In this document: positions 4,703 through 37,562 of the stretch, piece after piece
How the letters are laid out: every line of letters starts with the position of its first letter
How positions within the stretch are numbered: position 1 is the stretch's first letter
The notes under the pieces: model-generated
Told to the model about the DNA's origin: nothing
The model's database searches: none
The model's input: the letters and a program-made list of their open reading frames with translations, nothing else
Made by a program: the position numbers and the translations under genes
Assembly (NCBI RefSeq): GCF_007970185.1
Contig: NZ_CP042431.1
Coordinates: forward strand, 3,906,001 to 3,970,000
Direction: 5' to 3'
DNA length: 64,000 nt
Origin: Pseudobacter ginsenosidimutans
GTDB taxonomy: Bacteria > Bacteroidota > Bacteroidia > Chitinophagales > Chitinophagaceae

Positions 4703-4763
4703 TGGATATTCCATTAAAAGCAGGAGGGTGCTTCATTGGCATCCTCTCCCAAAAAATGTTTTC

Positions 4764-7700: not shown

Positions 7701-8201
7701 ACCTGGCAAGTTGATTTCAGCAAACCGGAGAAAGGTGGTATCCCTTACGACAGCCTTGAATCACTGGTCAACAATATTCCGCCTCGACAAAAACTGATGA
7801 TCATCGATGCCTGTCATTCAGGTGAGGTAGACAAGGAAGATATGAAGATGGGAGAAGAAGGCGGCATCGCCTACCTGCCTGATTCCTACCAGTCAAAGGG
7901 AGAGGCCATGGCGCCTCAAACAGTGTTCGAACTGATGCAGGAGATCTTTCCCGATGTGGGCAGGAACTCAGGTACCACCATTCTTTCAGCCTCCCGTGGT
8001 ACACAAACAGCCAATGAATGGGATGAGATCAAACACAGCATTTTTACTTATTCCATACTCGAGTTGCTGCAACAACAACCTCATGCTTCGGTATGGCAGT
8101 TGAAGGAGCATACTTATCGCAGGGTGATGGAGCTCACCAATGGTGTGCAAAGGCCAACCACCCGCCAGGAGATGAAGAACTCCGACTGGATGGTCTGGTA
8201 G
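4764..8201 (+). CDS. Secreted WD40 beta-propeller / caspase-like (peptidase C14) protein
   Basis: About 1145 residues from ATG 4764; this start gives a clean signal peptide (MKVVSLLLSIVFMLGQIHAQ), unlike an upstream GTG at 4728. Residues about 30-690 are WD40 repeats of the form GHTAHISSIQLS...LLTGANDNTIKVWDGKTG, enough for about two seven-blade propellers. A linker follows, then a C-terminal caspase-haemoglobinase fold at about 880-1130. The catalytic dyad is visible: His967 in VVIAYSGHGLL and Cys1017 in LMIIDACHSGE. Family members cut after basic or acidic residues, and the propeller usually binds partners. It is unusual that the protein is predicted to be exported, so it would act in the periplasm or outside. 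Ends 9 bases from the convergent flavoenzyme gene. Substrate unknown. Confidence 0.9.
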   Translation: MKVVSLLLSIVFMLGQIHAQEQDLRLMLPIGHTAHISSIQLSNEQEFLLTGANDNTIKVWDGKTGTMRLNIRMKGQVGAARLSHDENWIVGAASEDSVRVFNRKTGKLRIAKKVSWGTGGAIFSGNDSSILAFGVTDAQLFDAFTGKTLLTIPARNGNLITAVFSPDEKLILTCGTHGGVELWDVQTKKIRYRLQSAMEYVHAAIFSYDGSKVAVASDTALTIWNTTTGKVHLNLKHAGDAVRMTAFSPDDKYILSGNWRNETIIWEAATGRKVRTLTHSADLIAISPDGKKVALGGGDDRGVAVFDMTTGKKITHVYPRESLSQLLFSKTGLSFVTGTVMGHLDVFDAEKGDWRLTFNGHVHANWTSRFSPDGSTLLTSPYDGSLKLWDRKKGELKKTVWNIRGGPEFSPDGTKLIASCWDSTARIIDVASGETWMTMNGHKSLMIDACFNKDGSMAITQDFDGIVQLWDLVSRKSTLRIEAGPEVRKVAFNPDGTKFYLYHYHDKFIAVRSTKNGDVLYTVPVDNCQIDQFEFTHDGKYYFTSTGCSTFVGDAVTGKILYTKSQGSAGREGRLDPSGERLLLLNSKNMELWDWQNNRLIVKEEHTGEKLEKAFYSPDGKTLVITTDDGYMQIREAGTLRLITTLEGHEGGVNTIDFFSTENLMVSCGADFTGKLWDLKTGSLVYTFFALGNEDYFTLLPSHYYRSTPMASRMLYYTSKDQDWISFEQLDLKYNRPDLVLKSAGSANKKLISTFYEAYLRRLRRQGFDSLTLQSKVAAPQFDFANGKEFISTKQYPSKVSIRIRVEDRNLPLDRFNVWVNEVPLWNNRGVSLKHLNSGTFDTIITVSLSEGYNLVEGTAMNAEGLESLRKSMVIGKVPDEQKAKARKCYFVGVAIERFADTGNNLLWSVKDIRALAGAFKEKYGSAHIVIDTLFNEKVSLAAILQLKKKLLKADINDVVVIAYSGHGLLSNDFDYYFPTWQVDFSKPEKGGIPYDSLESLVNNIPPRQKLMIIDACHSGEVDKEDMKMGEEGGIAYLPDSYQSKGEAMAPQTVFELMQEIFPDVGRNSGTTILSASRGTQTANEWDEIKHSIFTYSILELLQQQPHASVWQLKEHTYRRVMELTNGVQRPTTRQEMKNSDWMVW

Positions 8202-8209
8202 TTGAAAAA

Positions 8210-9172
8210 TTAGAAACAGGCTTTTGCCAGGAGCCGGAAAATAGTCAGTTTATCTTTTTGATCTGAAGAATGCACCAGCAGCATCAGCTCATCGGCGCTG
8301 TAATTGTCAGCGAACGCCTGCAGTTGCTGGCCGATGGTTTGTGGCGGACCCCAGATAATTTTTTGCCGGTTCTCCATCACCTGAATTTGTTCATCGCCGG
8401 AGAATTCATATTGCTGTGCAGTTCCCGGCAATAGAGGCAGTTGTTTTTTTCTGTCTGATCGCAACAGTCCGAAGTCCAGCTCCCGCAGTAATCGCTTCAA
8501 ATCTTTTTCTTCCTCCGCACAGATCACAAAAACAGCCATACTGATTTTTGGAATCCTGTTTACTTCATTGGGTGAGAAGTGATCACGGTACAGCTGTACG
8601 GTGGCTGGTCCATCGGTGGGATTGATGAAGTGGGCATACGAGAGGGGCAGACCCAGTTCCGCAGCCAGCCTGGCAGTAGGCATGCCCGAACTGAGGAGCC
8701 AGCGTTCCGGTAAGTTTTTCGGTTGTTCCAATCCGTTATCGTGTTGCCCAAGCAACTCCGATAATTCGAGGATATTGTGCTTGTATGTACCGATATCATA
8801 AGTATGTGCGGGGTTCAATAATTGCCGCACCAGCGTCGATTCGCTGCCGCCTCTGCCAATGCCGAGGTCGATGCGGCCCGGATACAGGGTGTGCAGCATT
8901 TTGAAAGTATCCGCTACCTGCTGAACCGGATGATTAGGCAGCAGGAGCCCGCCGGCGCCGATCCTGATGGAACTGGTTTCTGCTGCCAGTCTCGCCATCA
9001 GTATTGCCGGAGAGGCACAGGCAAATTGTGTTGAGTTATGATGCTCTGTAACCCAGAAACGATGATAGCCCCATTGCTCCGCCAGTTTGGCGAGCGTGAT
9101 GCAGTGCTGGATGCTTTCCCTGGGCGTGCTGCCGGGATTCACCAGGGTTTGATCGAGGATGGATAATTGCAT
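8210..9172 (-). CDS. Luciferase-like (LLM class) flavin-dependent oxidoreductase
   Basis: 320 residues, bacterial luciferase-like fold. The N-terminus LSILDQTLVNPGSTPRESIQHCITLAKLAEQWGYHRFWVTEHHN is the standard start of the MsnO8-type subgroup; IRIGAGGLLLPNHPVQQVADTF and RIDLGIGRGG follow. Such enzymes use reduced flavin supplied by a reductase to monooxygenate or desaturate substrates. It starts 9 bases after the PhyH dioxygenase stop, so it is probably in the same transcript and could take part in peptide tailoring; many LLM proteins are generic, so this link is inference. No flavin reductase is seen nearby. The stop is 9 bases from the convergent WD40-caspase stop. Confidence 0.9.
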   Translation of the reverse strand: MQLSILDQTLVNPGSTPRESIQHCITLAKLAEQWGYHRFWVTEHHNSTQFACASPAILMARLAAETSSIRIGAGGLLLPNHPVQQVADTFKMLHTLYPGRIDLGIGRGGSESTLVRQLLNPAHTYDIGTYKHNILELSELLGQHDNGLEQPKNLPERWLLSSGMPTARLAAELGLPLSYAHFINPTDGPATVQLYRDHFSPNEVNRIPKISMAVFVICAEEEKDLKRLLRELDFGLLRSDRKKQLPLLPGTAQQYEFSGDEQIQVMENRQKIIWGPPQTIGQQLQAFADNYSADELMLLVHSSDQKDKLTIFRLLAKACF

Positions 9173-9181
9173 GCCGTCTTC

Positions 9182-9937
9182 CTACATTTTTTGTGCAGCA
9201 CCAGACCCGGGTAAACCAAAATCTTTCATGAACTGCGGCCGGAAATTACCTTCGGCAGCCTTGTTGTAGGTGAACAGGATGGCGCTTCTTCCCATTGCAG
9301 AGAAATTAGGGGCGGACTGATGCGGAGCAAAACCATCGAAAACAATCACATCACCCGGCAACGTTTCCAGCTTTTCGAACGGCAGCGCCTGTGCAGCAGC
9401 TGCTTCGATAGGTTGCATATACTCACTCATGATGCCTTTCTTGTGCTCGCCGGGAGCGATCTCCAGACAACCATTCTCCACCGTCGCATTTTCGCAGGAG
9501 ATAAAAATGGAAATGATATTGGTCATATATTTCTGCCAGATACCGCTCATGTCCTGGTGCGGTAAAAAGCCCCGGCCGCCCGGTTGCTTGAAGTTGATCT
9601 TATCAGTGCATAATATGGCCTCTTCCCCGAAGATGGCAGCTACCACCGATAAAAAGTAAGGGGATTGTGCGGTTCCCATCAAGGCAGGGCTGCACTCCAG
9701 GAAATTGGAGATCTTGTGCATCACTTTCCGGTTGCTGCCATCCACTGCATTTTCAAAAGTGATCAGTTCAGGATGCTGCCTGCACAGGCGTTTGATCTCC
9801 TGTTTCAACAGTTCCATTTCCGCTTCCGTAAAAACATTGCGCAACACATAGTAGCCATGGATGTCATAGGCTTCACGGATGTTCCGGAGCGTTTCGGGAG
9901 AAAGGTTGTTGCTGGCCGGGATATTAATTTTATCCAT
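9182..9937 (-). CDS. PhyH-family Fe(II)/2-oxoglutarate dioxygenase
   Basis: 251 residues from ATG 9937; an upstream ATG at 10057 would run into the divergent gene and is disfavoured. The phytanoyl-CoA dioxygenase-like core is clear: the metal ligands are His127 and Asp129 in FLPHQDMSG and His206 in FAPHQSAPN, with Arg217 (MGRSAILFTYN) positioned to bind 2-oxoglutarate. GDVIVFDGFAPH is the usual strand before the distal His. It would hydroxylate or desaturate an unactivated carbon. It is divergent from the JmjC gene across 43 bases and is followed by the flavoenzyme. Substrate is inferred to be the RiPP core because both flanks are RiPP genes, but a small molecule is possible. Confidence 0.9.
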   Translation of the reverse strand: MDKINIPASNNLSPETLRNIREAYDIHGYYVLRNVFTEAEMELLKQEIKRLCRQHPELITFENAVDGSNRKVMHKISNFLECSPALMGTAQSPYFLSVVAAIFGEEAILCTDKINFKQPGGRGFLPHQDMSGIWQKYMTNIISIFISCENATVENGCLEIAPGEHKKGIMSEYMQPIEAAAAQALPFEKLETLPGDVIVFDGFAPHQSAPNFSAMGRSAILFTYNKAAEGNFRPQFMKDFGLPGSGAAQKM

Positions 9938-9980
9938 AAAAAGTTTCCTGACGATTAGTTGTTTTAATTTGATCCCTGAA

Positions 9981-10916
9981 ATGAAAATATACCATATTCC
10001 TGAACAACCCTTCAAGGGAAAAATAGATCCAGGCAGTTTGCCTGCCGATCCTTCCATTTTTTTTGATGGTCTGCAGGCGCCGGTATCCGCCGGTATTCAT
10101 TTTCTCGATACCGCGGGTGAAAGAAAATATGGCGGCAGGCTCAAAGACCTTGACAAACTCCGGGAATCATTACCTTTTTTGTCTGTCAGGTATCCTCAGC
10201 TCGTTCTGGTGCTGAAAAATCTTTTGTCTTCCAAAACCCTTGCCAATACTTATCTTCCGCTGAAAGATCAGTTTGCTGAAAAAACATTTTTTCCTTTCCT
10301 GCATATGGCGGGCACCGTTTCACAAAAAGGAGGCAGCATCGGTTATCATCTCGATAATTACCATGTGTTCATCCTGCAGGCCGAGGGGCGCAGAACCTGG
10401 AATATTTGGAACAAGAATGTACTGACGGCCGAAGAATCATCCTGCTTTGTCAGAGAAGATCCCGAAGAAACCAGTATTGCCATTCAAAAGCAACGGCCCC
10501 CCGATCATGTATTTACCCTCGAACCCGGCGAATTCATTTTTATTCCCGCGCTCTTTCCGCATGAAGGCATCAGTTCCATGGAAGATGGATTGTCCATCAG
10601 TCTTTCCTACGTTTACACTGCGCTCTCCGGTTTCAAACTGTTGAGGCCGGCATTGCCCCGGTCGGTTACTGCGGTGCTTCGTTATACAGATGAACGCACC
10701 AGGCCCTTGTATGAGATCATTCACGAGCTTCCGTTGCAGGAAGAGGAATACAGGCACTGGTTGCAAATTAACCTCGAACATTTCGGACAATTGCTGCCAG
10801 CGGAGATCCGTTCATTACTGCATAACCAACCGGAACCATTAACCGAATACTGGCTGAATCTTTTTTCCGGTCAGGCCGGCACCAGCGCGGAACGTTTTTC
10901 CAGCAACACATTGTGA
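9981..10916 (+). CDS. JmjC/cupin-like Fe(II)/2-oxoglutarate oxygenase
   Basis: 311 residues from ATG 9981, which gives MKIYHIPEQPF; a longer frame from 9879 would overlap the divergent gene. The jelly-roll oxygenase motif is visible: His123 and Asp125 in GYHLDNYHVFILQAEGRRTWNIW, and distal His194 in LEPGEFIFIPALFPHEGIS, the same arrangement as in ribosomal-oxygenase/JmjC proteins that hydroxylate protein side chains. It is the only plus-strand gene inside the RiPP locus. Its last 46 bases overlap the end of the convergent P450 gene, an unusually tight fit. JmjC-like enzymes acting on RiPP precursors are plausible, since the family works on proteins, but this is inference. Confidence 0.88.
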   Translation: MKIYHIPEQPFKGKIDPGSLPADPSIFFDGLQAPVSAGIHFLDTAGERKYGGRLKDLDKLRESLPFLSVRYPQLVLVLKNLLSSKTLANTYLPLKDQFAEKTFFPFLHMAGTVSQKGGSIGYHLDNYHVFILQAEGRRTWNIWNKNVLTAEESSCFVREDPEETSIAIQKQRPPDHVFTLEPGEFIFIPALFPHEGISSMEDGLSISLSYVYTALSGFKLLRPALPRSVTAVLRYTDERTRPLYEIIHELPLQEEEYRHWLQINLEHFGQLLPAEIRSLLHNQPEPLTEYWLNLFSGQAGTSAERFSSNTL

Positions 10917-12067
10917 AGGGGAAAGGGATTCAGAGAGATGGTATTCCGGAGCACAGGCACAAAGTGGCCGCGGCCGGAAACAATATTTTCCGACAGGATC
11001 TTCTCCACAAATGCCCGGATGATCCTGAAAGAAAGATTGGTGCCGGGGCATTTGGTAAAGCTGCGACCGAATGGAATGAATGCCCAGGGATCTACCTTTC
11101 CACCTGCCATGAAACGCGCAGGTTGATAAGTGTCCGGGAACTCCCAGCATTCAGGGACCCGATGGGTCAGCAGGGGAGAGATATGCAAAAGATCCCCGGC
11201 AATGAAATGATGCCCGCAAAGAGAGAAATTGTTCATGGCAGTGCGGTGGAAAAGCCAGTTGGGCGGGAATAGTCTCAGTGATTCAAGTATTACCGCATAC
11301 AGATAACCGTTAGTTTGACTGTTGGGATCATCGGTCTTTTCGGAAGACTGGCCGTAGTTCCTGCAGAATGCATCTTCAAATGCCGCCAGGTTGGAGATGA
11401 TCCAGCCAATGGCATTACTGATATTCTTGCAGGAGAAATGAATGATGCCGATCAGGCTGTCCACTTCTTCCTTGAACCTGCTGTACAGTTCAGGATCGGT
11501 AAGGCCTGCGGGCAGGTCCCTGCCGATCTGTTTGTACATATCGAGAGCAAACTGTCGCTGGTCTGTTACGGCCTGTGCGAAAAAGATCCGGTCCGGTAAA
11601 CCGGGTGTTCTGTTATCGTTGAGTTCCGACTTGTACCATTCCACCCTGTCGGAGGCTGTCATGAACAGTTCCAGGGATGCAGGAGGAATGGGAGCTCCGT
11701 ATCCTGAGAGCATGAGGGAAAGAACCGCCAGGTTCAGTTTCCGTTCATCGATCGTATGATGGTTTCCATCGCTGCTGTAAATACTGGCAGCGGGGAGACC
11801 GGGATCCAAACTTTGTACATGATCATTTTTCAGCGAGCGAAGCGCCAATGGAAGCCCTTCTTCCCGAATACTTTCCATCAGCTGACGCCAATAGAAAATT
11901 TTGGAAGGCCGGGTAACACGCTGCGCTTCTTCTAACAACACAGCCCTGATGGCATCAGGGCTGCAAAGAATGAATTCCCGCCTGTTGCCTGCAGAGATAT
12001 TGATGATGGGGGATGAAACGGATGCCAGCCGGAGGATGCCGGCTGGTGATAAGATCGGTACGCTCAT
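10871..12067 (-). CDS. Divergent cytochrome P450
   Basis: 398 residues from ATG 12067; an in-frame GTG at 12115 would overlap the precursor gene. The heme-binding loop is FIPFGRSFTKCPGTNL with Cys340 as thiolate ligand, and the K-helix ExxR is Glu262-Arg265 (LESLRLFPP). The I-helix, which normally has (A/G)GxxT for oxygen activation, reads HFSCKNISNAIGW, so the conserved Gly and Thr are replaced. The first 100 residues match no typical P450 N-terminus well. It lies 26 bases after the RiPP precursor stop, a position typical of tailoring P450s that form cross-links in peptides. Redox partner genes are not seen. Activity on the core peptide is inferred from position. Confidence 0.88.
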   Translation of the reverse strand: MSVPILSPAGILRLASVSSPIINISAGNRREFILCSPDAIRAVLLEEAQRVTRPSKIFYWRQLMESIREEGLPLALRSLKNDHVQSLDPGLPAASIYSSDGNHHTIDERKLNLAVLSLMLSGYGAPIPPASLELFMTASDRVEWYKSELNDNRTPGLPDRIFFAQAVTDQRQFALDMYKQIGRDLPAGLTDPELYSRFKEEVDSLIGIIHFSCKNISNAIGWIISNLAAFEDAFCRNYGQSSEKTDDPNSQTNGYLYAVILESLRLFPPNWLFHRTAMNNFSLCGHHFIAGDLLHISPLLTHRVPECWEFPDTYQPARFMAGGKVDPWAFIPFGRSFTKCPGTNLSFRIIRAFVEKILSENIVSGRGHFVPVLRNTISLNPFPLHNVLLEKRSALVPA

Positions 12068-12093
12068 GAGATCCTCACTGAGTGAATAATGAA

Positions 12094-12357
12094 TTAGTCG
12101 CCGCTGTACCAGCACTGCGTGGGTTTGGAACCCATCATGCTCTGACCGCCGGCAATATCGTCGAGGTCATCATCGCTCATGGCATCCAGCCCGAAAGCCT
12201 GCGCCTGTGCACTGATCTCTTCAACGCTGAAATTGAAACCGAGCGAAGCAGCAAATTCGGCGATAGCTTCGGGAGTCTGCAGTTGGGAGAAGCGATCTTT
12301 CAGACTCTGGTCTTTTTCGAGTTCACTCATGAACTCTCTGAATTGTGAATTGCTCAT
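12094..12357 (-). CDS. RiPP precursor peptide with Nif11-type leader and GG cleavage site
   Basis: 87 residues. Residues 1-71 form a Nif11-like leader: an amphipathic start (QFREFMSELEKDQSLKDRF), AIAEFAASLGFNFSVEEI, then an acidic end DDDLDDIAGG. The double glycine at 70-71 is the expected cut site of the C39 peptidase-ABC exporter encoded upstream. The remaining core is QSMMGSKPTQCWYSGD (residues 72-87), with a single Cys, Trp and Tyr in a row plus Lys, Thr and Ser. It lies between the radical SAM gene (31 bases upstream) and the P450 gene. ATG at 12357. The leader type is established for exported peptides; the final product is unknown, and the core composition matches no class I recognise. 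Confidence 0.93.
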   Translation of the reverse strand: MSNSQFREFMSELEKDQSLKDRFSQLQTPEAIAEFAASLGFNFSVEEISAQAQAFGLDAMSDDDLDDIAGGQSMMGSKPTQCWYSGD

Positions 12358-12388
12358 AGTGTTGTATGGGTTTTGGATAAATAATAAA

Positions 12389-13669
12389 TCAGGTGTGATA
12401 AATATCGTTGGTGATCTTTAATCCTCTTTGCTTCAGGTCTATCAGATCGAAATAATGATTACGGATATCGTTGCAGTTGGGGAATTCGGCCTGCAGGGTT
12501 TTGTCAACATCATACAACTCACCATAGTCGCCTTTCTGGAAACAGAAACGGTGAATGACACAGGACTTGCAGGCATTCAAATCGTAATCATATTGTTGCC
12601 GGAATTCTTTCAGCCCTTTGAATGCATCCACCCCGTTCTCCCAGATATTACCTGCACAGAATTCCGGTTTATGGAGATTGTCGTTGTAATATACATTGCC
12701 ATCGAACTTCAATACGTAGTAAGACATGGGTACTGCCGACGGGGTTCGCGTGTACAGCGTATTCAGGATCTTGCCGTACCGGCTTGGACGAAGAAGATAG
12801 GCGAGATAAGGTTTTCGCTCAAGGATCTCCGTTAGGATGCGGCCCAGTTCCCGGTAGCCAAAATAATCGATCTTCTCATCCGTCTTCGGTGTGGAATCCG
12901 GAGGCGGTACATCGGCCAGGGCACCGGTATAACGGATCACATTGTAATTCCAGCCGTAGAGGCCGAGACTGTGACAGAGTTCCAGCATTTCTTCCACATG
13001 GATCACGTTCTCTTCGGTGATCACGGATTTTACAGACACGGGAACGCCGATGGACAACAGGTATTTGATATTCTCGATCACCTTGTGAAAGGTGTTCTTC
13101 TGCCTGTATCTTTCATGGATCTCTGCGCGGGGGCCGTCCAGTGAAATGCGGATATGAGCTGTTTTGTTGTTCTCGAAAATTTCCCGGATGAGCTTATTCT
13201 CGCGGATCTTCTGGTGCACGCCATTGGAGGTGAGCCAGATCCGGAAGCCTTTATCGTGGATGTACTTGAACCAGTGTTCTATACCTTCCTTCACAAAAAC
13301 TTCTCCGCCGGTAAACTGGAATGTTTTCTGATTACGGGATTTCTGGTCGAAATGATCGGCCACCATTTTGAAATCCTCGAAGGAGATCTCCTTGATCTTC
13401 GAAAAATTATAGCCGCGGAAACAGTAGTCGCAAACGATATTGCAGCGGTTGGTTACGCAGATGAGCAGTTGGTCGAATTCCGTGGCGCCGAAATCGTAAC
13501 CAAGTACTTTGGAGCCTTTGGGAGTGATCTGTTGTTTTGCGGGCCTGTCCCTTTTTTGTACATACCATTCCAGGTAATCAGGCAGGAGATAATACCGGTG
13601 GTCATTCCATTCAAGGGTATTCACCCTTACGGCATCTCCGGTTTGGCAGTAATCATCAAATAAACCCAT
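12389..13669 (-). CDS. Radical SAM / SPASM peptide-modifying enzyme
   Basis: 426 residues from ATG 13669, in preference to a TTG at 13675. The N-terminal region (1-65) is a leader before the radical SAM core, whose cluster motif is Cys76, Cys80 and Cys83 in CNIVCDYCFRGYNF. FQFTGGEVFV is the GGE SAM-binding motif, and HIRISLDGP follows. The C-terminal SPASM-type region carries further cysteines for auxiliary clusters (EFCAGNIW, LNACKSCVIHRFCF and FPNC). Such enzymes install thioether, C-C or C-O cross-links, or epimerise residues, in a leader-guided peptide. It sits directly upstream of the precursor. A separate promoter may lie in the 88 bases upstream, but no clean consensus is seen. Confidence 0.95.
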   Translation of the reverse strand: MGLFDDYCQTGDAVRVNTLEWNDHRYYLLPDYLEWYVQKRDRPAKQQITPKGSKVLGYDFGATEFDQLLICVTNRCNIVCDYCFRGYNFSKIKEISFEDFKMVADHFDQKSRNQKTFQFTGGEVFVKEGIEHWFKYIHDKGFRIWLTSNGVHQKIRENKLIREIFENNKTAHIRISLDGPRAEIHERYRQKNTFHKVIENIKYLLSIGVPVSVKSVITEENVIHVEEMLELCHSLGLYGWNYNVIRYTGALADVPPPDSTPKTDEKIDYFGYRELGRILTEILERKPYLAYLLRPSRYGKILNTLYTRTPSAVPMSYYVLKFDGNVYYNDNLHKPEFCAGNIWENGVDAFKGLKEFRQQYDYDLNACKSCVIHRFCFQKGDYGELYDVDKTLQAEFPNCNDIRNHYFDLIDLKQRGLKITNDIYHT

Positions 13670-13757
13670 AAGCAATTAGTATAGTGCGTTAAGTTAATGA
13701 AAATCTGATACCTGAATAGCCGTCTGTACGCATTTATTATTCAGATAACAAACAAGT

Positions 13758-14912
13758 CTATTTGCTGTCCTTGCAATGTTCGGCCAGATATGCATCGATA
13801 TAGTTCTTGTATTGATTGATCTCATTGATGCTGCCTGCAGTTTTGTTCAGTTCTGAATTGTATTTGTCAACGGCTTTGTTGAGTGCCGCCATTTGCTTGT
13901 TCACTTCACCTTTTACTTCCTGGTAATCGCTCCAGTTATTGATATTATCTCTAAAATTCTTGATCGCGCCCAGCAAGCTGCCCAGTTTCCCCAGGTCGGT
14001 AACCGCATGGGTAAGGATGGTATTATGTACATCTTCCGAATATAGCGCCTCCAGTGCTTTATCGCCTTTTTTGATGGCTTCATACACCGCCACTTTGGTC
14101 ACATATTTTACGCCGGCATCTTTAGCTGTTTTCAGGAGATGGCCCTGTGGTGAGGAAATATTGATCAGGTCCTCGATAGTGTTGGCGGCCATTTTCAGGG
14201 TAAGCCTAACGATTTGCCAGTCACTGGTGGCTACTTTCGATGTCTTCAGCAAAGTATCCTTCAAGTTTTTGATATCGGATACCAGTTCTGCTTTTATCTT
14301 GTACTTGTTGCGTTGCCTGTCCCACAGGGCCGGCAGTTTGTTGTCGCGGTATTGGACCAGCTGTTTGCAGTCAATGGCCTTGTTCTTATCCGTGTTCGTA
14401 TTTGCAGTGGCGGCCTCTTTGATGGAAACCAGTTCCAGCTTGATATTGCTCAGGCGGGATCTGAATTTATCGTTGTATTGTTTATCGCTTTTGCATTTGG
14501 TGCTGAAGTCATGTCCGTCGAACCAGGGACTGCCTCCGGCTTTTGCTTTGGGGTTCACCGTGAGTGAAAAGGTATGGGTGGATTTGTTGCCGCAGAAATC
14601 GGAATAGGTGGCAAGGAATTTCACATATAGTTTGGTTTCTGAAAGATTTTGCACCAGTACGGAAGTGCCTTCCGAGCCCATGGACCAGCCCGTTGAGCCG
14701 ATAAATGCCGTGATGCGCTTATCGCCTGCACCGCTCAGATCCCACTTGAGGAATTTACCGGTAAAGTTCTGTGCAGACACGGTAGGAGAGATAAAGAGGA
14801 ACAATAAGGCTGCGGAAAAAAGACGCAGCAGGTTTTCTTGTAACTGGGCAAGCATGGTTGTTGGGATAAATAGTTTAACACTAATAAATATAACCGAAAA
14901 GAACCGGTTCAT
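13758..14912 (-). CDS. Secreted protein of unknown function in the RiPP operon
   Basis: Up to 384 residues. The ATG at 14912 overlaps the stop of the ABC gene (ATGA), which suggests translational coupling; an ATG at 14855 would give a more standard signal peptide (MLAQLQENLLRLFSAALLFLFISPTVSAQ). The mature part begins with a beta-rich section (FLKWDLSGAGDKRITAFIG, residues about 50-120, including paired Cys in SDFCGNKSTH and FSTKCKSDK). A largely helical, probably coiled-coil section runs to the end, with HLLKTAKDAGVKYVTKVAVYEAI and VNKQMAALNKAVDKYNSELN. I recognise no family. In this position it could be an immunity protein, a periplasmic partner of the exporter or a product-binding protein; none of these is shown. 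Confidence 0.75.
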   Translation of the reverse strand: MNRFFSVIFISVKLFIPTTMLAQLQENLLRLFSAALLFLFISPTVSAQNFTGKFLKWDLSGAGDKRITAFIGSTGWSMGSEGTSVLVQNLSETKLYVKFLATYSDFCGNKSTHTFSLTVNPKAKAGGSPWFDGHDFSTKCKSDKQYNDKFRSRLSNIKLELVSIKEAATANTNTDKNKAIDCKQLVQYRDNKLPALWDRQRNKYKIKAELVSDIKNLKDTLLKTSKVATSDWQIVRLTLKMAANTIEDLINISSPQGHLLKTAKDAGVKYVTKVAVYEAIKKGDKALEALYSEDVHNTILTHAVTDLGKLGSLLGAIKNFRDNINNWSDYQEVKGEVNKQMAALNKAVDKYNSELNKTAGSINEINQYKNYIDAYLAEHCKDSK

Positions 14913-17041
14913 TTCAATTGACGCCTTGCGAAATTTTGAAAGGGACCTTCGGTTGTCATCAGTTCTGCAGGACTACCCGCCTGGATGATCTTTCCGTTGC
15001 CGATAAAATACACCCGGTCTGCCGCCATGATGGTTTCCAGCCGGTGGGCGATGATCAGTTTGGTGGCTTTGGTCTCGTGCAGGGTATGGGTAATGATGGC
15101 CTGTGAAATATTATCCAGTGCACTGGTTGCCTCATCGAAAAGGATGATCCGCGGATTCCCGGACAGCGCTCTTGCAATGAGCAGGCGCTGCTGTTGTCCA
15201 CCGGAAAAACTGCCTCCTGCATCCGACACAACAGTATGCAAACCCATCGGTAATGCCTCGATCTCTTTTTTCATTCCCACTTTCGCCAGTGCTTCCCACA
15301 CCGCCGTATAACCGGAGTGGCCGCCGGAAATATTCTCATAGATACTTCCCCCTGTGAGTGTACTGTTTTGCAGCACCACACCCATATTGCGCCGGACAGC
15401 TTTTATGTTCAGTTGTTTCAGGTCCTGCTCATCGAAGTAAATAGAACCTGCTTTGGGTGTTTCAAAACCGAGCAGCAAACGGAATATGGTGGATTTTCCG
15501 GAACCGGACGCGCCTACAAAAGCCACCGTCTCTCCTTCGTTGATCGCGAAAGACATGCCATCTATGATCGGGGGTGTATCCTCTCCATACGAATAGGATA
15601 CCTGGTTGAATTCAATGCGGCCATCGAGGGTGAGTTGTTCCTGTGGACCAGGTTCTTTTTCTCCGGCTGTATTTAATATGGGCTCCAGTTTTTTGAACAG
15701 GGCCACTGCTTTGAGAATGCCGCTGACACTGGATCCCAGGGCAATAACATTGGCGGCCAGTAATCCGAAGGCAGTGATGAATCCCGCAAAATCACCGGGA
15801 CGAATACTGTTGATGACCTGCCCGGAGAATCCATAGATCATCAGCAGGGCGAGGCTGGGGAAAAGATAGTTCAACAGTTGGATCTGTTGCTCTGCCTGCA
15901 GGGTATCCTGGGCAAGTGTTCTTTCTTTGGCATAATGTCCGCTCCATTGCCGAAGTACAAAGAGTTCCTTGCCTGCTGTTTTGATCTTGGCGATCCCTGA
16001 AATGAATTGATAGATGCGGGAATTGAGAGCAGTCTTTGCCTGCAGCTGCCTGCTATTGGCGAGGTTCTCTCTCCGGTAAGAAATGAACAGCAGCACCAGG
16101 TAGATCAAAAGAGCAGCCAGGGCCAGCAGTCCTAACCGGGTGGAATACACGAACATCAGTCCCAGGTTGAACAGCAGCTGCAGGCTGCTGAAAAAAGCCA
16201 ATACTACACCGCTGCTGATCATCACGCGGATCTTACTGAAGCCGAGAGATCGTTCCACCAGTTCACCGGCACTGGTCTTTGCAAAGAAACCGGCAGGCAG
16301 GTTCAAGATCTTATTGAAAAAAGCGACCTGCAGTTTTAGGTCTGCTTTGGTTTCGAAACGTAAAAGCACCAGGTTGCGATAAACAGAGAAACAAAAGATA
16401 AGCAGTCCGATCAGCAATAATAAAATACATAATTGCACCAGCATGCCACTGTTGGCGGAAGGGATCACGTTACCGATCAGTGAGCTGAAAGCCAGGGGCA
16501 GCACCAGGTTCAGGCCGCTGATGACCACGGAGCTGCCGGCAAATGCCAGCAATTCCTTTCTTCGCCCTGAGAGCGCAAACTGTAGTAAGGAGCGGTTGGA
16601 GATGGGTTCTTCGCCGAGCAATGCACAAAATACAAAAGCCGCTTCACTGAGATTTGCCGCCAGCGCCGCATCGATTTTCTGCCGCTGACCTGCCTTCGGA
16701 TCCACCAGGAAATAATTTCCCTTCTCCTGGAGGATTGCGCATACTGCCCCGTCTTTCGTGAATCCCACCATCGATCCCAGATCGGATGTCCACCAGTTAC
16801 CCTGCAGCCTTACCTTTCTTGCCAGCACATTGGATTGCCGCGCGATGGCCTGCAGTTGCCGTGTGATGGTTTGCGAGCCGTTACCCGCAATTGGCTGAAA
16901 ATACAGGCCCTGCCCGGCACCGGCCAGGTTCATGCATTGCAGCAGCAGTCCATGTCCGAGCGCATGTCCATTCCCGTTATCATGGCGGAGAACGGAAAGC
17001 AGGTCTGATTCTATTTGTGCTACAAAAGATGGCCCGGCCAT
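14909..17041 (-). CDS. ABC exporter (NHLM-type second ABC protein, no peptidase)
   Basis: 710 residues. The N-terminal domain (1-150, with GAVCAILQEKGNYFLVDPKAG) replaces a C39 peptidase. A six-helix membrane domain (about 165-450) follows, then an ATPase with Walker A GASGSGKST, signature FSGGQQQR and Walker B RIILFDEATSALD. This architecture, next to a C39-ABC protein and an HlyD protein, is that of the second ABC protein in Nif11/nitrile-hydratase-leader microcin (NHLM) systems described for Nif11-type precursors. It probably forms an inner-membrane exporter with the gene product encoded 9 bases upstream. Its stop overlaps the next start. Confidence 0.92.
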   Translation of the reverse strand: MAGPSFVAQIESDLLSVLRHDNGNGHALGHGLLLQCMNLAGAGQGLYFQPIAGNGSQTITRQLQAIARQSNVLARKVRLQGNWWTSDLGSMVGFTKDGAVCAILQEKGNYFLVDPKAGQRQKIDAALAANLSEAAFVFCALLGEEPISNRSLLQFALSGRRKELLAFAGSSVVISGLNLVLPLAFSSLIGNVIPSANSGMLVQLCILLLLIGLLIFCFSVYRNLVLLRFETKADLKLQVAFFNKILNLPAGFFAKTSAGELVERSLGFSKIRVMISSGVVLAFFSSLQLLFNLGLMFVYSTRLGLLALAALLIYLVLLFISYRRENLANSRQLQAKTALNSRIYQFISGIAKIKTAGKELFVLRQWSGHYAKERTLAQDTLQAEQQIQLLNYLFPSLALLMIYGFSGQVINSIRPGDFAGFITAFGLLAANVIALGSSVSGILKAVALFKKLEPILNTAGEKEPGPQEQLTLDGRIEFNQVSYSYGEDTPPIIDGMSFAINEGETVAFVGASGSGKSTIFRLLLGFETPKAGSIYFDEQDLKQLNIKAVRRNMGVVLQNSTLTGGSIYENISGGHSGYTAVWEALAKVGMKKEIEALPMGLHTVVSDAGGSFSGGQQQRLLIARALSGNPRIILFDEATSALDNISQAIITHTLHETKATKLIIAHRLETIMAADRVYFIGNGKIIQAGSPAELMTTEGPFQNFARRQLK

Positions 17042-17050
17042 AATATGTTG

Positions 17051-19198
17051 TTATTCGGTTTCTTTCAAAAATTGCTGGTACAGGGGACTATCCCTTAGCA
17101 GTACTTCGTGTGTGCCCCGGTGTTCTATCACGCCGCGATTCAATACAATGATCTGGTCGCAGTCCCTGATGGTGCTTAGCCGGTGGGCAATGATCACCAG
17201 GGTGATGCCGAGACCTTTTATATTCTGACAGATCCTGAATTCCGTTTCGGGGTCCAGGGCGCTGGTGGCTTCGTCCAGCACCAGGATGCGGGGCTTCTTG
17301 ATCAGTGCTCTGGCTATTTCCATCCGCTGCCTTTCGCCACCGCTGAAATTCCTGCCACCTTCATGGAGCTGGCTGAAATAGCCGCCCGGTCTTTTAGAGA
17401 TCACATCATGTATCTCTGCCAGCCGGCAGGCATGAATGATATGCTCCATGGCAATGCTCTCGTCCCAGAAGGTCAATACATCTTTGACAGTGCCTGCGAA
17501 AAGTTCTATCTCCTGGTCCACCATGCCGATGGAAGCTGTCCGTAATGCCTTCGGTAACTGTTCAAGATCCTTACCATCAAACTGCACGCTTCCTTTCCAG
17601 GGTTCGTACAGGCCGGTGATCAGTTTGGCCAGGGTGGACTTGCCGGACCCCGACAACCCGATAAAAGCAAAACTTTGCCCACGGGGTATCTGCAGGGAAA
17701 TATCATTGATGATGGGCGGCGCCATCTGATTATAACCGAAGCTGAGTGCCTGCAGGCTGATGGCGCCAGACAATTGCTCTGCTACAACGGATGGGGTAAG
17801 CTGGCGGGTGTTTTCTTTGTCCGGGTAATGAAGGATATCGTACAGGCTTCTGAAATAGGAGCCTAACATGGAAAGCTCGCTGCTGGAGTCTGCCACTCTC
17901 TGTACAGGTACAAAGAACTGTTGGAACAGTACGGTGAAGGTAAGCAGCAGGCCTACGGAAAGATCACCTTTCATCACTTCATAGCCACCGATCAGGAGGA
18001 TCAGGCCCAGATTGACCAGGGAAAGAAGGCCGGGAAGTGCTCGGCTAACGGTAGTGTGTAAGCGCGTTTGCTGGCTGCTGATCAGGTAACGTGCGTGGAA
18101 GCCTGCCCATTTGCGGAAGAATTCGTTCTCACGGGCCGAGGATTTGATGGACTCGATGGCCTGTAGTCCGGTATAGGAAACTCCGGAGAGGCTGCTGCTG
18201 TCTTTAACGAATCGGTTGTAAACGGCATTTCTACGCAGGCCCAGCCAGTAGAAGAGACGCATCGTAACTGCTGCGATCACCAGGCAGATCAGCGCCAGTT
18301 TAACACTGTACACAAACATGACCCCGAGAAAGAATAGGGAAGACAGCAGTGATACAACGGTTGAGAGGAGGCTGCCTGTCAGCGATTCGGCTACGAGGTT
18401 GGCAAACTCCACACGGGAACTGATCTCGGCCTTGCTGCGCTGCTGATAAAACGACATCGGCAGGTGAAAGATCTTTACCAGCAAGCGGTAAGCCAGCAGC
18501 ACACTGAGCTTGGTGTTCAGTCTCCGGATAACGGTCTGCTGGATCATCATGAGTGCTGCATTGATCAGGATGGCGGCGCCAAGACTGACCATGATGGGTA
18601 CCAGCCAGAAAGTATTATTTTGTATGAGAACGAAATCGATGAAGATGCGGGTAATGGAAGGAATTACCAGCGCCGGAGCCAGCGCCAGCAGGCCGGCGAA
18701 CAAAAGAAAATACAATGTTCTTTTCGAACCGCTGAGCAGTTCCCATATCTTTTGGGTAACATTGAAAGGCGCACCTTGTTTTTTGAAACCTTCCGCAGGT
18801 TCCAGTTGCAGCACCACACCGGAATAGGAGCCGGCAAATTCTTCCGGCGTTACCCAGATCTTACCCAGGGCAGGATCGTTGAGGAAGACTTTATTTTCAG
18901 TTGCTCCTTCCACTACCAGAAAGTGATTGCTCTCCCAGAAAACGATAAAGGGAAAGGGTAGTGCCAATGCCTGCTGCGCAGTCTTCTTGAAACCCTGCGC
19001 TTTCATTCCGAGAGTGCGGGCCGCTACCACGATATTTTTGGCGCTGGTCCCATCCCGGCTCACACCACAAATGGTTCTCAATTGTTCCAATGGAAGATAG
19101 GATCCAAAATAGGAACAGATGATCCCCAATGAGGCAGCTCCGCATTCCACTGCTTCCATCTGCAGCAACACCGGGGTATTGACTCTTCTGGCACTCAT
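17051..19198 (-). CDS. Peptidase-containing ABC exporter (C39 domain)
   Basis: 715 residues. The N-terminal C39 papain-like domain has its triad visible: Cys19 in MEAVECGAASLG, His92 in SNHFLVVEG and Asp108 in LNDPALG. It would remove the leader after the GG of the Nif11-type precursor during export. A six-helix membrane domain (about 165-430) and an ATPase with Walker A GLSGSGKST, signature FSGGERQR and Walker B RILVLDEATSALD follow. It overlaps the HlyD stop by 4 bases (ATGA), so the two are translationally coupled. Together with the second ABC protein it completes the NHLM-type export trio. Confidence 0.95.
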   Translation of the reverse strand: MSARRVNTPVLLQMEAVECGAASLGIICSYFGSYLPLEQLRTICGVSRDGTSAKNIVVAARTLGMKAQGFKKTAQQALALPFPFIVFWESNHFLVVEGATENKVFLNDPALGKIWVTPEEFAGSYSGVVLQLEPAEGFKKQGAPFNVTQKIWELLSGSKRTLYFLLFAGLLALAPALVIPSITRIFIDFVLIQNNTFWLVPIMVSLGAAILINAALMMIQQTVIRRLNTKLSVLLAYRLLVKIFHLPMSFYQQRSKAEISSRVEFANLVAESLTGSLLSTVVSLLSSLFFLGVMFVYSVKLALICLVIAAVTMRLFYWLGLRRNAVYNRFVKDSSSLSGVSYTGLQAIESIKSSARENEFFRKWAGFHARYLISSQQTRLHTTVSRALPGLLSLVNLGLILLIGGYEVMKGDLSVGLLLTFTVLFQQFFVPVQRVADSSSELSMLGSYFRSLYDILHYPDKENTRQLTPSVVAEQLSGAISLQALSFGYNQMAPPIINDISLQIPRGQSFAFIGLSGSGKSTLAKLITGLYEPWKGSVQFDGKDLEQLPKALRTASIGMVDQEIELFAGTVKDVLTFWDESIAMEHIIHACRLAEIHDVISKRPGGYFSQLHEGGRNFSGGERQRMEIARALIKKPRILVLDEATSALDPETEFRICQNIKGLGITLVIIAHRLSTIRDCDQIIVLNRGVIEHRGTHEVLLRDSPLYQQFLKETE

Positions 19199-20358
19199 CT
19201 GGAATGCTTCAATGAAGGAAATATGAAAGAGATGGGCGATCGTTCTTCAGCAATGATATTCGCCCGGATCAGTGTGCCACTCATAACATCTGTTTCCGGA
19301 CCGCGGCCGGAAGTCCATTTGTATTTACTGAAGGTGCTGCTATCGGTAGACAGTCTCACTTCCGCCACCATGGGCAGACCATCGCGGGAGAGTTCTTCCA
19401 CCAGTTTGCTGTTGCGTAAAGTACGGTTCATACCCGCTTCCGTGAGGGTGTATTTTGAAATATAGCTGACAGTACCCAACAGGTAACCGTGTTCTTCGGG
19501 AGGAATGGTGGAAGGCGCTATCTGTACTGTCATGCCCGGTTGCAGCTTCTTGCCTTCATTAGCGTTTACATATACCTGTGCGATCAGTTCGTTGCGGTCA
19601 TAATCCTGGTTCTCCATCACCAGGAAAGTGCTGCCTTCATTGAAAATATCTCCATTGTTGAAGGCCATATCGATAACGGTACCGCTATAGGGACTGACGA
19701 TCTGCGACTGGTTGACGAGCTGATTCTTTTTGAATTGCAGTTCGCTTTCATAAGTGCGCAGGTTGTTCCGGAATTCGAAGATCCGGGCGTGGTTGTAATT
19801 GACGAGGTCTGTCATTCGCAGCAGTTCGGTTTGCCGGTCCTTTTCAAGCCCTGCCTTTTCCTGTTCGTAGTTTTCTGCTTCAGAGTTAAGTGACCTGAGC
19901 TGCCTGTCGTAACCGGCAATAGTTGCTTTCAGCTGTTGAATAGACTTGTTACGCACTGCCAGGTCAGTATTATCCAGCAGCCAGTTCAGGCTTTTGCGGA
20001 TGTCTCGGATCTGGGTTTCGAGTTTTTTGATATCGAAGATCAGTTCCAGTTGTTCTACGGTGGCCAGGATCTCGCCCTGCTCTACCTGCTGACCGATCTT
20101 TACGTTGAGCTGACTGATCTTCCCGGGGAAGGGGACTTTTATTTCACTGATGCCGGATTCATTGATGAGAATGCCTTTGCCTTTTACATAGACGGGTACG
20201 CTGGAAACGATGCTCCAGATAATGGTAGCTACGATGATGGCGAAAATAAAACTGATAAACATTTTCTGCCGGGGGCGAACCAGTTGCACAGCCTGGTCCA
20301 CCTTGTCCGGGGATCTGTGAATATCCAGTTCTTCAGCGCTTGCCTGCTGTATGTTCAT
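19195..20358 (-). CDS. HlyD-family secretion (membrane fusion) protein
   Basis: 387 residues. A short cytoplasmic N-terminus is followed by one membrane helix (KMFISFIFAIIVATIIWSIV, about 32-51), then a periplasmic barrel-sandwich and coiled-coil region: GKGILINESGISEIKVPFPGKI, VKIGQQVEQGEILATVE, long helices with QLKATIAGYDRQL, and the return half YSGTVIDMAFNNGDIFNEGSTFLV. It links the inner-membrane exporter to the outer membrane. This is the NHLM-type HlyD protein. It starts 14 bases after the preceding gene and overlaps the C39-ABC gene by 4 bases. Confidence 0.93.
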   Translation of the reverse strand: MNIQQASAEELDIHRSPDKVDQAVQLVRPRQKMFISFIFAIIVATIIWSIVSSVPVYVKGKGILINESGISEIKVPFPGKISQLNVKIGQQVEQGEILATVEQLELIFDIKKLETQIRDIRKSLNWLLDNTDLAVRNKSIQQLKATIAGYDRQLRSLNSEAENYEQEKAGLEKDRQTELLRMTDLVNYNHARIFEFRNNLRTYESELQFKKNQLVNQSQIVSPYSGTVIDMAFNNGDIFNEGSTFLVMENQDYDRNELIAQVYVNANEGKKLQPGMTVQIAPSTIPPEEHGYLLGTVSYISKYTLTEAGMNRTLRNSKLVEELSRDGLPMVAEVRLSTDSSTFSKYKWTSGRGPETDVMSGTLIRANIIAEERSPISFIFPSLKHSR

Positions 20359-20372
20359 AAGGTGGTAGGCTG

Positions 20373-21146
20373 TTAGTTATTGGTGATCACCCAGTGGCCG
20401 GGTTGTGTTGTAATGAAGCAGTGCTTTTTTGCGGAGCGGAACTGATCGAGGCTTTCCACGATCACCTGGTGGCAGCCGGCCACGCCGCGAAGCTGGTATT
20501 CTTTTCCGGCGTATACGATACCCTTGTATTCATCCTCTACATAGAGGTAGAGATTTTTGGAAGAGTTGTTGACCACTTTCAAGATGGGGCCGGAAGGCTT
20601 TGCAGCAGCAGATCCGGGAGCTCCTTTTGCGCGGAAACCCCGGTTGGTTTTCGAAAGCGCAGGAGGCGGCGGCGGTGGTGGCGGAGGAGGAGAAGAAATG
20701 TCTACGGGTTCGTCCTGTTGCATTTCGTCAAGAAGCGCGATGGTCTCCTTGTTAATGGAATAGGCAACAGCCATTCTGTACACATTGCTGATTTCGGGCT
20801 TCATCATCCCGCGCCCCTTTACTTTTACCAACAATCCGGCAGTTGTATCCATCAATGACCTGGCATCGATATACGGCGATTTAAGTCGTTTTGCTTTTTC
20901 AAGGCTGTCGAGGTATTCCACTGTTTTCAGTAAAGCAGCGAAATCCCTGGTCATCAGGGCCGAGTCGATAGCAAATCCAATATTGCCGGAGGGAAGGCCA
21001 AATGCTTCCAGTATGGAGATACCCTGCAAACGTTTGGTGGCAACTTTTGCGAGCATACTCTGGCTTTTTTCTTTGGTGGTTTCTTCCTGGGAATAGCCTG
21101 CCAAACAAGCCATCAGGCCCAGGACGAACAGGGTCGTTTTTTTCAT
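20373..21146 (-). CDS. Secreted proline-rich protein of unknown function, first gene of RiPP operon
   Basis: 257 residues from ATG 21146 (MKKTTLFVLGLMACLAGYSQ, a signal peptide); an in-frame start at 21173 would bury it. The N-terminal half is helical (SQSMLAKVATKRLQGISILEAFG, YLDSLEKAKRL). The middle has a run of ten prolines (SSPPPPPPPPPPAL) that must be an extended linker. The C-terminal about 70 residues form a beta domain (SSKNLYLYVEDEYKGIVYAGKEY, GCHQVIVESLD). No family is recognised. It lies 14 bases before hlyD and appears to open the minus-strand operon. Possible roles include exporter accessory or immunity; none is shown. Confidence 0.7.
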   Translation of the reverse strand: MKKTTLFVLGLMACLAGYSQEETTKEKSQSMLAKVATKRLQGISILEAFGLPSGNIGFAIDSALMTRDFAALLKTVEYLDSLEKAKRLKSPYIDARSLMDTTAGLLVKVKGRGMMKPEISNVYRMAVAYSINKETIALLDEMQQDEPVDISSPPPPPPPPPPALSKTNRGFRAKGAPGSAAAKPSGPILKVVNNSSKNLYLYVEDEYKGIVYAGKEYQLRGVAGCHQVIVESLDQFRSAKKHCFITTQPGHWVITNN

Positions 21147-21569
21147 AAGAAGCGAAAGTGATTGATGCTCCAAATTAATGCCTTTTTCCCCACTTTATCA
21201 TAATTGTGCCTGGGTTCTTCCCGGAAAATCTAACATCACATAATATTAGATCGGACAATGATCCCTATCAAAAGGCAGACACTGTTGCAGAAGTCACCGC
21301 ATCTTCCGATACAAAGCCGTTGCAGCAAAGAAGAGAGATGGACTCTCTGATTTTTGAAATGGGCCATCACATCCGACAAAAATTACAGGGGATTTTTGAA
21401 AGCGACCTTAAAGTGATGAAGCTTAACGACCAGAAATTTACTTTTGGCCATCAGTCATCTTAAAAATTCAATTTAAACACAAATTAATGCGGCAGTCTCC
21501 GGAATATTTTGCAACTTTGTTGCATTAATGAAAAGAGGCATTTTACATACATCGGAGAAAAGCAGCAGG
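21147..21569. other. Intergenic region between RiPP operon and metal island
   Basis: About 420 bases between divergent operons. It holds the operator-like element at 21510-21524. A weak plus-strand frame with a GTG start (21206-21463, 85 codons) shows no family features and is not called as a gene. The minus-strand side should carry the RiPP operon promoter; the best -7 candidate (TTAATTTG near 21170) deviates by one base from the consensus and lacks a convincing -33 TTG. Confidence 0.5.
21510..21524. promoter_or_regulatory. Putative metalloregulator operator TGCAAC-N3-GTTGCA
   Basis: Perfect 6-3-6 inverted repeat TGCAAC TTT GTTGCA immediately upstream of the metal island's first gene. A near copy (TGCAAC AGT GTTTCA) lies at 30993-31007 upstream of the related small gene at the far end. 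The repeat size fits a dimeric Fur/Zur-family regulator, one of which is encoded in the island at 25753. Binding is inferred, not shown. Confidence 0.6.
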
Positions 21570-24400: not shown

Positions 24401-24422
24401 AAAAATAAACAAAACCCCTTTT

Positions 24423-37556: not shown

Positions 37557-37562
37557 ATTCCG

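Follow-up and report, generated by a model that had tools for sequence, protein, structure and literature searches.

The locus described here raises the question of whether a dense group of redox enzyme genes, gathered around the gene for one short Nif11-leader precursor, forms a single pathway, and which of the enzymes would act on the peptide. In the 64,000-nt stretch of Pseudobacter ginsenosidimutans DNA that we analyzed (the window), we found a conserved 12-gene block (homology span 4748–21227, 16.5 kb; Table 1), which appears to produce one small peptide, modify it with as many as five redox enzymes, and export it. A sequence-only reading had described a RiPP-type locus at 8210–21146 that combines a Nif11 leader with a C39-ABC/ABC/HlyD export trio of the NHLM type. 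The profile matches agree with that description, although ABC2 stays below the cut-off of its best family, and the genes named are all open, intact, and correctly placed. The extent needed revision: 8210–21146 is part of the unit, and the true block is larger, adding the gene for a WD40-caspase protein, outermost in the block, and two further open reading frames for putative signal-bearing proteins. None of the 12 genes contains an internal stop in this copy or in that of the sister species described below.

Table 1. Genes of the conserved block in window coordinates, with profile scores in bits (cut-offs in brackets), motifs, identity to the sister copy, and dN/dS between the two copies.
Position	Strand	Product	Evidence	dN/dS
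4728..8201	+	WD40 propeller and caspase-like (C14) protein	PF00656 56.2; WD40 161.7; signal-like N-terminus by eye; 82% identity
8210..9172	-	Luciferase-like (LLM) flavin monooxygenase, MsnO8 family	TIGR03558 301.7 (166.95); Bac_luciferase 110.4 (27.9); 75% identity	0.18
9182..9937	-	PhyH 2-oxoglutarate dioxygenase	PF05721 84.2 (22); HQD...H motif	0.09
9981..10916	+	JmjC_2 (ribosomal-oxygenase type) 2-oxoglutarate oxygenase	PF08007 58.9 (22); HLD...H metal motif	0.24
10871..12067	-	Divergent cytochrome P450, 398 aa	PF00067 60.3 (22.8)	0.13
12094..12357	-	Nif11-leader precursor, 87 aa	PF07862 43.0 (23.8); TIGR03798 53.8 (32.3); 93% identity	about 0.04
12389..13669	-	Radical SAM enzyme (rSAM), degenerate SPASM end, 426 aa (ATG 13669)	PF04055 (Radical_SAM) 76.4 (29.5); 97.7% identity	0.02
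13758..14912	-	Protein of unknown function, 384 aa	Signal-like N-terminus by eye; 84% identity
14909..17041	-	NHLM ABC transporter 2 (ABC2; permease/ATPase)	TIGR03797 673.6 (709.4), best family
17051..19198	-	NHLM ABC transporter 1 (ABC1) with C39 leader peptidase	TIGR03796 861.5 (853.3); PF03412 121.7 (above cut-off)	0.05
19195..20358	-	NHLM HlyD-type adaptor	TIGR03794 274.0 (156.2)	0.08
20373..21173	-	Protein of unknown function	Signal-like N-terminus by eye; 81% identity

The JmjC gene converges on the P450 gene with an overlap of 46 nt, and the PhyH and LLM genes, a pair of their own, run divergently from JmjC. Given this arrangement and the spacing, one shared transcript is possible only for the exporter genes, rSAM, the precursor, and the P450. 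A Bacteroidota-type promoter pattern had no match in the window (1.8 expected), and its second half matched 22 times (41 expected); sigma-70 sites were near chance (17 versus 13.6 expected), and terminator-like sites numbered 28 versus 14.3 expected, counted in total irrespective of gene ends. The G+C content of the block (about 0.45–0.52) is slightly higher than that of the flanks and not clearly foreign. The protein whose gene heads the exporter run gave no match in a Pfam search. The best matches of the 384-aa protein, a Pfam E value of 0.0038 and 16.1 bits against the NCBIfam NheA model (cut-off 500), lie far below cut-off and are taken as chance. AlphaFold2 models built from two-row alignments were unusable for both this protein and rSAM (mean pLDDT 39.6 and 41.2, respectively).

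In Pseudoflavitalea rhizosphaerae (KACC 18655), all 12 genes recur in unchanged order and with near-identical gaps, including the JmjC/P450 overlap, and the two copies form one 16.5-kb alignment at 82.8% identity. Conservation over the full 16.5 kb in another genome shows that the gene grouping is not due to chance. The flanks differ on both sides: the TonB neighbor of the block in the window lies on another contig in P. rhizosphaerae, and the P. rhizosphaerae site is cassette-free in the genome of P. ginsenosidimutans. We dropped the possibility that PhyH, LLM, and JmjC are chance chromosomal neighbors, because both flanks differ in the sister species, yet these genes stay with the precursor; the sequence-only reading had allowed for their occurring apart from it in relatives, and we found instead that all five redox genes travel with it. 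The presence of the same block at a different chromosomal place in the sister species suggests that it is probably one working unit making an undescribed natural product.

The distribution of this unit is narrow. At the set E-limits, orthologs of the precursor and of rSAM were found in 2 of 294 genomes of the family, those of JmjC and of PhyH in 2 of 290, and P450 matches in 5 of 394 (2 orthologs and 3 partial matches, 26–29%, to other P450s); in these samples of 290 to 394 genomes, orthologs of all five proteins were confined to the same two genomes. The WD40-caspase gene and the LLM copy of the block are each present in 2 of the 6 genomes of the genus, and an LLM paralog of 38–40% identity occurs elsewhere in all 6. 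A phylum sample of 395 genomes, from which P. rhizosphaerae, an expected match, was evidently absent, returned only the genome of the window itself for rSAM at E 1e-20. Plasmid searches with rSAM, the precursor, JmjC, and the 384-aa protein yielded no match at the set limits, and the 4 stretches that fitted the pattern in viral contigs searched with rSAM included no relative. As only two genomes of one genus are involved, they amount to at most two independent witnesses.

All 12 genes are under purifying selection (dN/dS 0.02–0.24, at a block dS near 0.8, which is close to saturation), with JmjC and LLM being the least conserved enzymes. Silent divergence is higher in the block (dS 0.56–0.89, 12 genes) than in 10 genes flanking the P. 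rhizosphaerae site (0.23–0.64; gene pairs were retained from 300 aa, 80% identity, and 90% coverage upward), which argues against a simple transfer. Since the right flank in the window is about as diverged as the block (68–82% DNA identity), we rate independent acquisition by the two species as possible and no higher.

The precursor scores exceed the curated cut-offs for Nif11 leaders. Its leader ends in DDIAGG and is followed by the core QSMMGSKPTQCWYSGD, so that cleavage after the GG would release 16 residues, as had been read from the sequence at the outset; the core of the sister species has 17. The last ten residues, KPTQCWYSGD, are identical in both species; 3 of their codons differ silently and none by replacement. 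The core contains one Cys, one Trp, one Tyr, and one Lys, its only basic residue, and the target of each enzyme should therefore be readable by mass spectrometry. On the exporter side, the C39 domain of ABC1 has, by eye, the QMEAVECG, NHF, and DP motifs.

Of the original radical SAM/SPASM assignment, the first half stands, whereas the SPASM region looks degenerate when the sequence is read by eye, in that CxxCx5C...C is retained, but the first pair of Cys residues and the CX3C Cys are absent. Radical_SAM is the sole Pfam match, with no B12-binding domain; no N-terminal PqqD/RRE domain was found on the enzyme in the Pfam search, nor do the Pfam matches listed for any of the 12 block proteins include one, and a divergent RRE is possible. 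None of the best 25 of its 75 NCBIfam matches reaches its cut-off, and the enzyme is 98% conserved between the species despite 44% change at fourfold sites (a difference of 0.44), which suggests that it probably performs specific, so far undescribed chemistry. The P450 keeps the heme Cys motif FGRSFTKCPG and ExxR (ESLR); in an alignment with three P450s of the family, SCKNI replaces the I-helix GHETT/GHDTT in both copies, with Lys-Asn in place of the acid-threonine pair, and the usual oxygen-activating residues are missing. Because these residues are atypical, the P450 is a candidate for peptide crosslinking, and passages on RiPP P450s describe the joining of aromatic residues, including adjacent Trp-Tyr in tryptorubin. 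All 5 of its NCBIfam matches are below cut-off (best ApyO, NF050147, 72.5 bits versus 525). As neither enzyme reaches a characterized NCBIfam family, for rSAM among those best 25, the reactions suggested for both below are guesses.

Among solved chains, the JmjC protein comes closest to a cupin-4 protein and to L16 arginine hydroxylases (4csw and 4ccl included), with HxD and H aligned, and it shares the JmjC_2 fold with HxD...H with the ribosomal oxygenases (YcfD/ROX); a JmjC enzyme in a RiPP pathway hydroxylates a basic residue (Orn) of the core. PhyH matched PHYHD1 and other solved chains, again with HxD and H aligned, and its best NCBIfam match is methylphosphonate hydroxylase (105.6 bits, far below the cut-off of 500). 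The PhyH, LLM, and JmjC genes lie outside the run of the precursor, which counts against action on the peptide.

We consider it rather probable that the block is a mobile 16.5-kb RiPP cassette, in which redox enzymes would modify the Nif11 core and the C39/NHLM machine would export the peptide. The genes of rSAM and the P450 immediately flank that of the precursor, and the leader would guide both enzymes to the invariant KPTQCWYSGD. There, the P450 would most likely join or rebuild the side chains of neighboring Trp and Tyr (or Cys and Trp), and rSAM would make a second carbon-centered change, for example, at Cys. One or more of the remaining enzymes may oxidize the core further, JmjC by hydroxylating Lys and PhyH and LLM by adding one or two more oxidations. 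The C39 domain would cleave after Gly-Gly, ABC1/ABC2/HlyD would export the peptide, and the product would probably act outside the cell as an inhibitor, antibiotic, or metal binder. A bolder version, which we advance only tentatively, would place the peptide in a RiPP class of its own: KPTQCWYSGD would be rebuilt step by step by five redox enzymes that differ in cofactor (a radical SAM iron-sulfur enzyme, the atypical heme P450, two distinct 2-oxoglutarate/iron oxygenases, and a flavin monooxygenase), and a mobile block of 12 genes would encode all of this along with a dedicated exporter and three putatively exported partners.

Since the WD40-caspase gene co-travels too, co-travel alone assigns no step to PhyH, LLM, or JmjC. 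Only rSAM and the P450, perhaps with JmjC, might modify the peptide; PhyH-LLM would then form an independent module for small molecules or detoxification that simply shares the mobile block, much as the WD40-caspase gene does. The separate divergent run of PhyH and LLM would fit this, as would the methylphosphonate hydroxylase (under cut-off) and MsnO8-type matches, neither family being peptide-specific. However, both genes accompany the precursor in each of the two genomes, with conserved tight spacing and purifying selection, and passages on other RiPP clusters report LLM and PhyH genes. We regard such a division as possible but doubtful. A redox-cofactor-like or signaling peptide, with Cys-Trp-Tyr converted to a quinone-like or thioether cofactor for the putatively exported cassette proteins, would have parallels in PQQ, mycofactocin, and CTQ and could explain the invariant CWY beside rSAM, the rSAM matches, by way of the SPASM region, to the models for mycofactocin and anSME (TIGR03962 and TIGR03942, both below cut-off), and the three conserved partner proteins; it is nonetheless improbable, as a C39 exporter with a Gly-Gly leader is typical of exported peptides and no dehydrogenase family is among the cassette matches listed. 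Least credible is a degenerate or orphan cluster, kept by hitch-hiking and giving little or no modified product, which would suit the two-genome distribution, the P450 without its usual pair, and the degenerate SPASM end, but not the uninterrupted genes, the low dN/dS, and the nearly identical core.

The favored reading, an exported and oxidatively modified peptide, can be set against several known systems. Nif11/NHLP-leader RiPPs (such as prochlorosins and spliceotides), which use NHLM-type export, share the Nif11 leader, the Gly-Gly site, and the C39-ABC and HlyD proteins, and the block has a second ABC protein that scores below the cut-off of its best family, NHLM ABC2, whereas the block has P450, JmjC, PhyH, and LLM genes and no lanthionine synthetase was found in it. 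Membership of the spliceotides was rejected because the core carries Trp-Tyr-Ser-Gly and no splicease Xaa-Tyr-Gly motif, and that of the lanthipeptides because no Lan dehydratase or cyclase is among the matches listed for the block proteins. Sactipeptides (AlbA/StsB type) were rejected on maturase scores under cut-off (AlbA 66.9 bits versus 850, StsB 58.3 versus 625) and the Pfam result for PqqD/RRE on rSAM. In P450-crosslinked RiPPs (tryptorubin/atropopeptides, cittilins, and biarylitides), as in the block, a P450 gene adjoins a precursor with neighboring aromatics; their precursors and exporters differ from the Nif11/NHLM type, and the block has rSAM, three more redox enzymes, and a Bacteroidota host.

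Passages on the aminopyruvatides (apy, Burkholderia) describe a P450, MNIO, B12-rSAM, and methyltransferase around one core, and the P450 and rSAM acting on a short core with a C-terminal Asp and nearby aromatic pair recall the block; the core studied here lacks the YLYD motif, and the apy passages mention no Nif11 leader. We rejected membership because no MNIO (DUF692) or methyltransferase is among the matches listed, the ApyO score is low, and the core ends in CWYSGD rather than aromatic-x-aromatic-Asp. Biphenomycins (bip/bpm), described in such passages with MNIO, B12-rSAM, JmjC, HExxH hydroxylase, and arginase around one core, likewise combine a JmjC hydroxylase acting on a basic residue with rSAM and a further oxygenase; their core is FRF, whereas that of the block has Trp-Tyr, and membership was rejected because, JmjC apart, no MNIO, B12-rSAM, arginase, HExxH hydroxylase, or TldD protease is among the matches listed. 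The initial impression that the locus belongs to no recognized class was overstated: several metalloenzymes around one small core have precedent in these two systems, and our literature search found RiPP precedents for each enzyme family and none for this five-enzyme set. Small, intact in two species, and narrowly restricted, the cassette offers a clean test case, and if all five enzymes do act on the core, the peptide would be unusual among small ones for the diversity of its enzymes.

The Nif11 precursor gene of the window, itself contained in the single 7.8-Mb contig of its genome, belongs to a conserved 12-gene block (the cassette) that also encodes a radical SAM protein (rSAM), a P450, JmjC and PhyH proteins, a luciferase-like flavin monooxygenase (LLM), an NHLM-type exporter (ABC1, ABC2, and HlyD), and 3 further proteins. 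With the exception of the NHLM ABC2, all named enzyme and exporter families exceeded their curated cut-offs in profile searches, and the gene calls of the sequence-only reading, which had described a RiPP locus with a Nif11 leader and up to 5 oxidative enzymes, proved correct. Against PADLOC models, the WD40-caspase protein produced weak matches (HEAT-ARM_XIII, 50.9 bits; caspase, 30.1 bits); its candidate roles may include processing, self-protection, or serving as the target.

Genes of the cassette in window coordinates. Starts of the PhyH, JmjC, P450, and rSAM genes are the first fitting ATG, chosen by hand; signal-like N-termini were recognized by eye; "no family" denotes that none was assigned in Pfam and NCBIfam profile searches.
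Gene	Position	Strand	Remarks
266-aa protein	20373-21173	-	first in transcription order of the - strand run; signal-like N-terminus; no family
HlyD	19195-20358	-	second in the run
C39-ABC (ABC1)	17051-19198	-	third in the run
ABC (NHLM ABC2)	14909-17041	-	fourth in the run
384-aa protein	13758-14912	-	fifth in the run; signal-like N-terminus; no family
Radical SAM	12389-13669	-	sixth in the run
Nif11 precursor	12094-12357	-	seventh in the run
P450	10871-12067	-	last in the run
JmjC_2	9981-10916	+	convergent with P450
PhyH	9182-9937	-	next after JmjC_2
LLM	8210-9172	-	next after PhyH
WD40-caspase (C14)	4728-8201	+	outermost gene of the block; signal-like N-terminus

The closest named relative of the window is Pseudoflavitalea rhizosphaerae KACC 18655 (Chitinophagaceae by NCBI lineage; same genus listing), hereafter the sister genome. 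Window positions 4748-21227 matched positions 17314-846 of the fetched sister stretch L002 in a single BLASTN alignment (82.8% over 16,512 columns), and 10 of the 11 gene gaps were within 4 nt of each other, the deviating one separating the 384-aa gene from ABC2 (-4 versus 24 nt in the sister). The tail-to-tail overlap of the JmjC and P450 genes (10871-10916) is exactly 46 nt long in both species, and the WD40-caspase stop codon lies 8 nt from that of the LLM gene. Beyond the alignment, no match to the window was detected (E 1e-5) in the approximately 18.6 and 20 kb flanking the sister cassette, which has a TolC-like gene on one side and a TonB-receptor/MiaB-like run on the other (both named by eye). 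The CobW and TonB genes from the right flank of the window occur in the sister genome without the cassette, the TonB receptor to the right of the cassette having its counterpart on a different contig, and the site of the sister cassette corresponds in the window's genome to contig position 6.684-6.686 Mb, where an unrelated 1.3-kb stretch is found instead. Because the flanks mismatch and each site is cassette-free in the other genome, the 12-gene block sits at different chromosomal sites in the 2 species.

Several features were recorded around these sites. In the window's genome, positions 434-1737 of L038, the stretch matching the sister's cassette site (~6.684-6.686 Mb), resemble by eye a membrane acyltransferase gene unrelated to the cassette, and a tRNA-Cys gene (window 3485-3558) lies ~1.2 kb off the left end of the block. 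Window positions 21470-31012 comprise a TonB receptor/DUF4625 run and a MacB-type ABC/CobW GTPase run, the order of which is reversed in the sister, a rearrangement adjoining the cassette; their contents may relate to metal homeostasis. The run at 31694-45167 includes DUF6683, DUF4347, M15 peptidase, and S8 subtilase proteins, as well as 368-, 253-, 898-, and 692-aa proteins without a Pfam family at E 1e-8.

Among genomes of the family, the precursor family TIGR03798 (E 1e-5) and rSAM (E 1e-30) were each detected in 2 of 294, JmjC (E 1e-10) and PhyH (E 1e-20) each in 2 of 290, and the P450 (E 1e-15) in 5 of 394, and the WD40-caspase (E 1e-50) was present in 2 of the 6 genus genomes; both samples contain the 2 cassette-bearing genomes and overlap mutually, so that these counts are not independent. 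Orthologues account for 2 of the 5 P450 matches (100% and 83%), the other 3 covering part of different P450s at 26% to 29% identity, and weaker PhyH relatives (26% to 30% identity) occur in 3 congeners. LLM relatives are found in all 6 genus genomes, the only close ones being the 2 cassette copies (75% to each other); the remainder show 38% to 40% identity or weaker. A P450-pattern scan of 84,980 species genomes, which detects close relatives only and possibly omits records near the own genome, returned solely P. rhizosphaerae. The expected co-occurrence of PhyH, JmjC, and LLM with the precursor was borne out in the only related genome found.

Between the 2 copies, fourfold sites diverge by 0.31 to 0.46 over the 12 genes, and identity at the protein level is lowest for JmjC (73%) and highest for rSAM (97.7%). 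The dN/dS ratios, computed from pairwise dN and dS, were 0.022 for rSAM, 0.041 for the precursor, 0.048 for ABC1, 0.081 for HlyD, 0.090 for PhyH, 0.104 for ABC2, 0.113 for the WD40-caspase, 0.128 for the P450, 0.144 and 0.178 for the 384-aa and 266-aa proteins, 0.179 for LLM, and 0.240 for JmjC. The first 75 precursor codons carry 18 silent and 5 replacing changes, and the last 10 codons of the core, 3 silent and none replacing. All 12 genes are thus maintained, with the tightest constraint on rSAM and the precursor. The core, QSMMGSKPTQCWYSGD, contains Lys7, Cys11, Trp12, and Tyr13 and differs from that of the sister solely in S versus TN immediately before the Lys; the calculated [M+H]+ values of the unmodified peptides are 1805.729 and 1933.788, respectively. 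LahT150 is a C39 protease employed on such leaders, according to an excerpt of PMC9576775.

The P450 retains the heme-Cys motif and ExxR, and its I-helix reads SCKNI versus GHETT/GHDTT in an alignment with 3 P450s of the family. On general P450 grounds, this missing acid-alcohol pair would fit one-electron coupling, as opposed to ordinary hydroxylation. The top NCBIfam match of the P450 was ApyO (72.5 bits; cut-off, 525). For rSAM, 75 NCBIfam models matched, and the best 25 of these, none near its cut-off, mostly cover the radical SAM core, with the mycofactocin and anSME models extending through the SPASM region. Among solved chains, GDGT synthase and SkfB come nearest, with alignment limited to the radical SAM core. 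By eye, the SPASM region retains CxxCx5C and the last Cys, which we take to represent one auxiliary cluster, and lacks the first Cys pair.

None of the open-licence PMC papers listed for Nif11, NHLM, and JmjC RiPPs with P450 and radical SAM enzymes and for Bacteroidota describes this enzyme set, judged by title, abstract opening, or passages (the latter including PMC13192836, PMC11002830, PMC12257519, and PMC10352776), and a search on the genus names turned up no relevant paper among the entries listed. Judged from its gene content in one genus, the cassette would specify a Nif11/NHLM RiPP with an enzyme set unprecedented in the literature searched. A PhyH gene is named in a figure legend for a thioamidated RiPP cluster (PMC8120280, in excerpt), and RiPP LLM proteins include LanJC, a reducer of dehydrated residues (excerpts of PMC12670281 and PMC7268733), whereas no dehydratase was found among the family matches listed for the cassette. 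JmjC matches the ribosomal-oxygenase type, whose solved members carry names of Arg or His hydroxylases; the cassette's core contains neither Arg nor His and a single Lys. Given that BipG, the JmjC protein of biphenomycin biosynthesis, hydroxylates a core-peptide ornithine (PMC12707348), this Lys would be our first guess for the predicted JmjC target.
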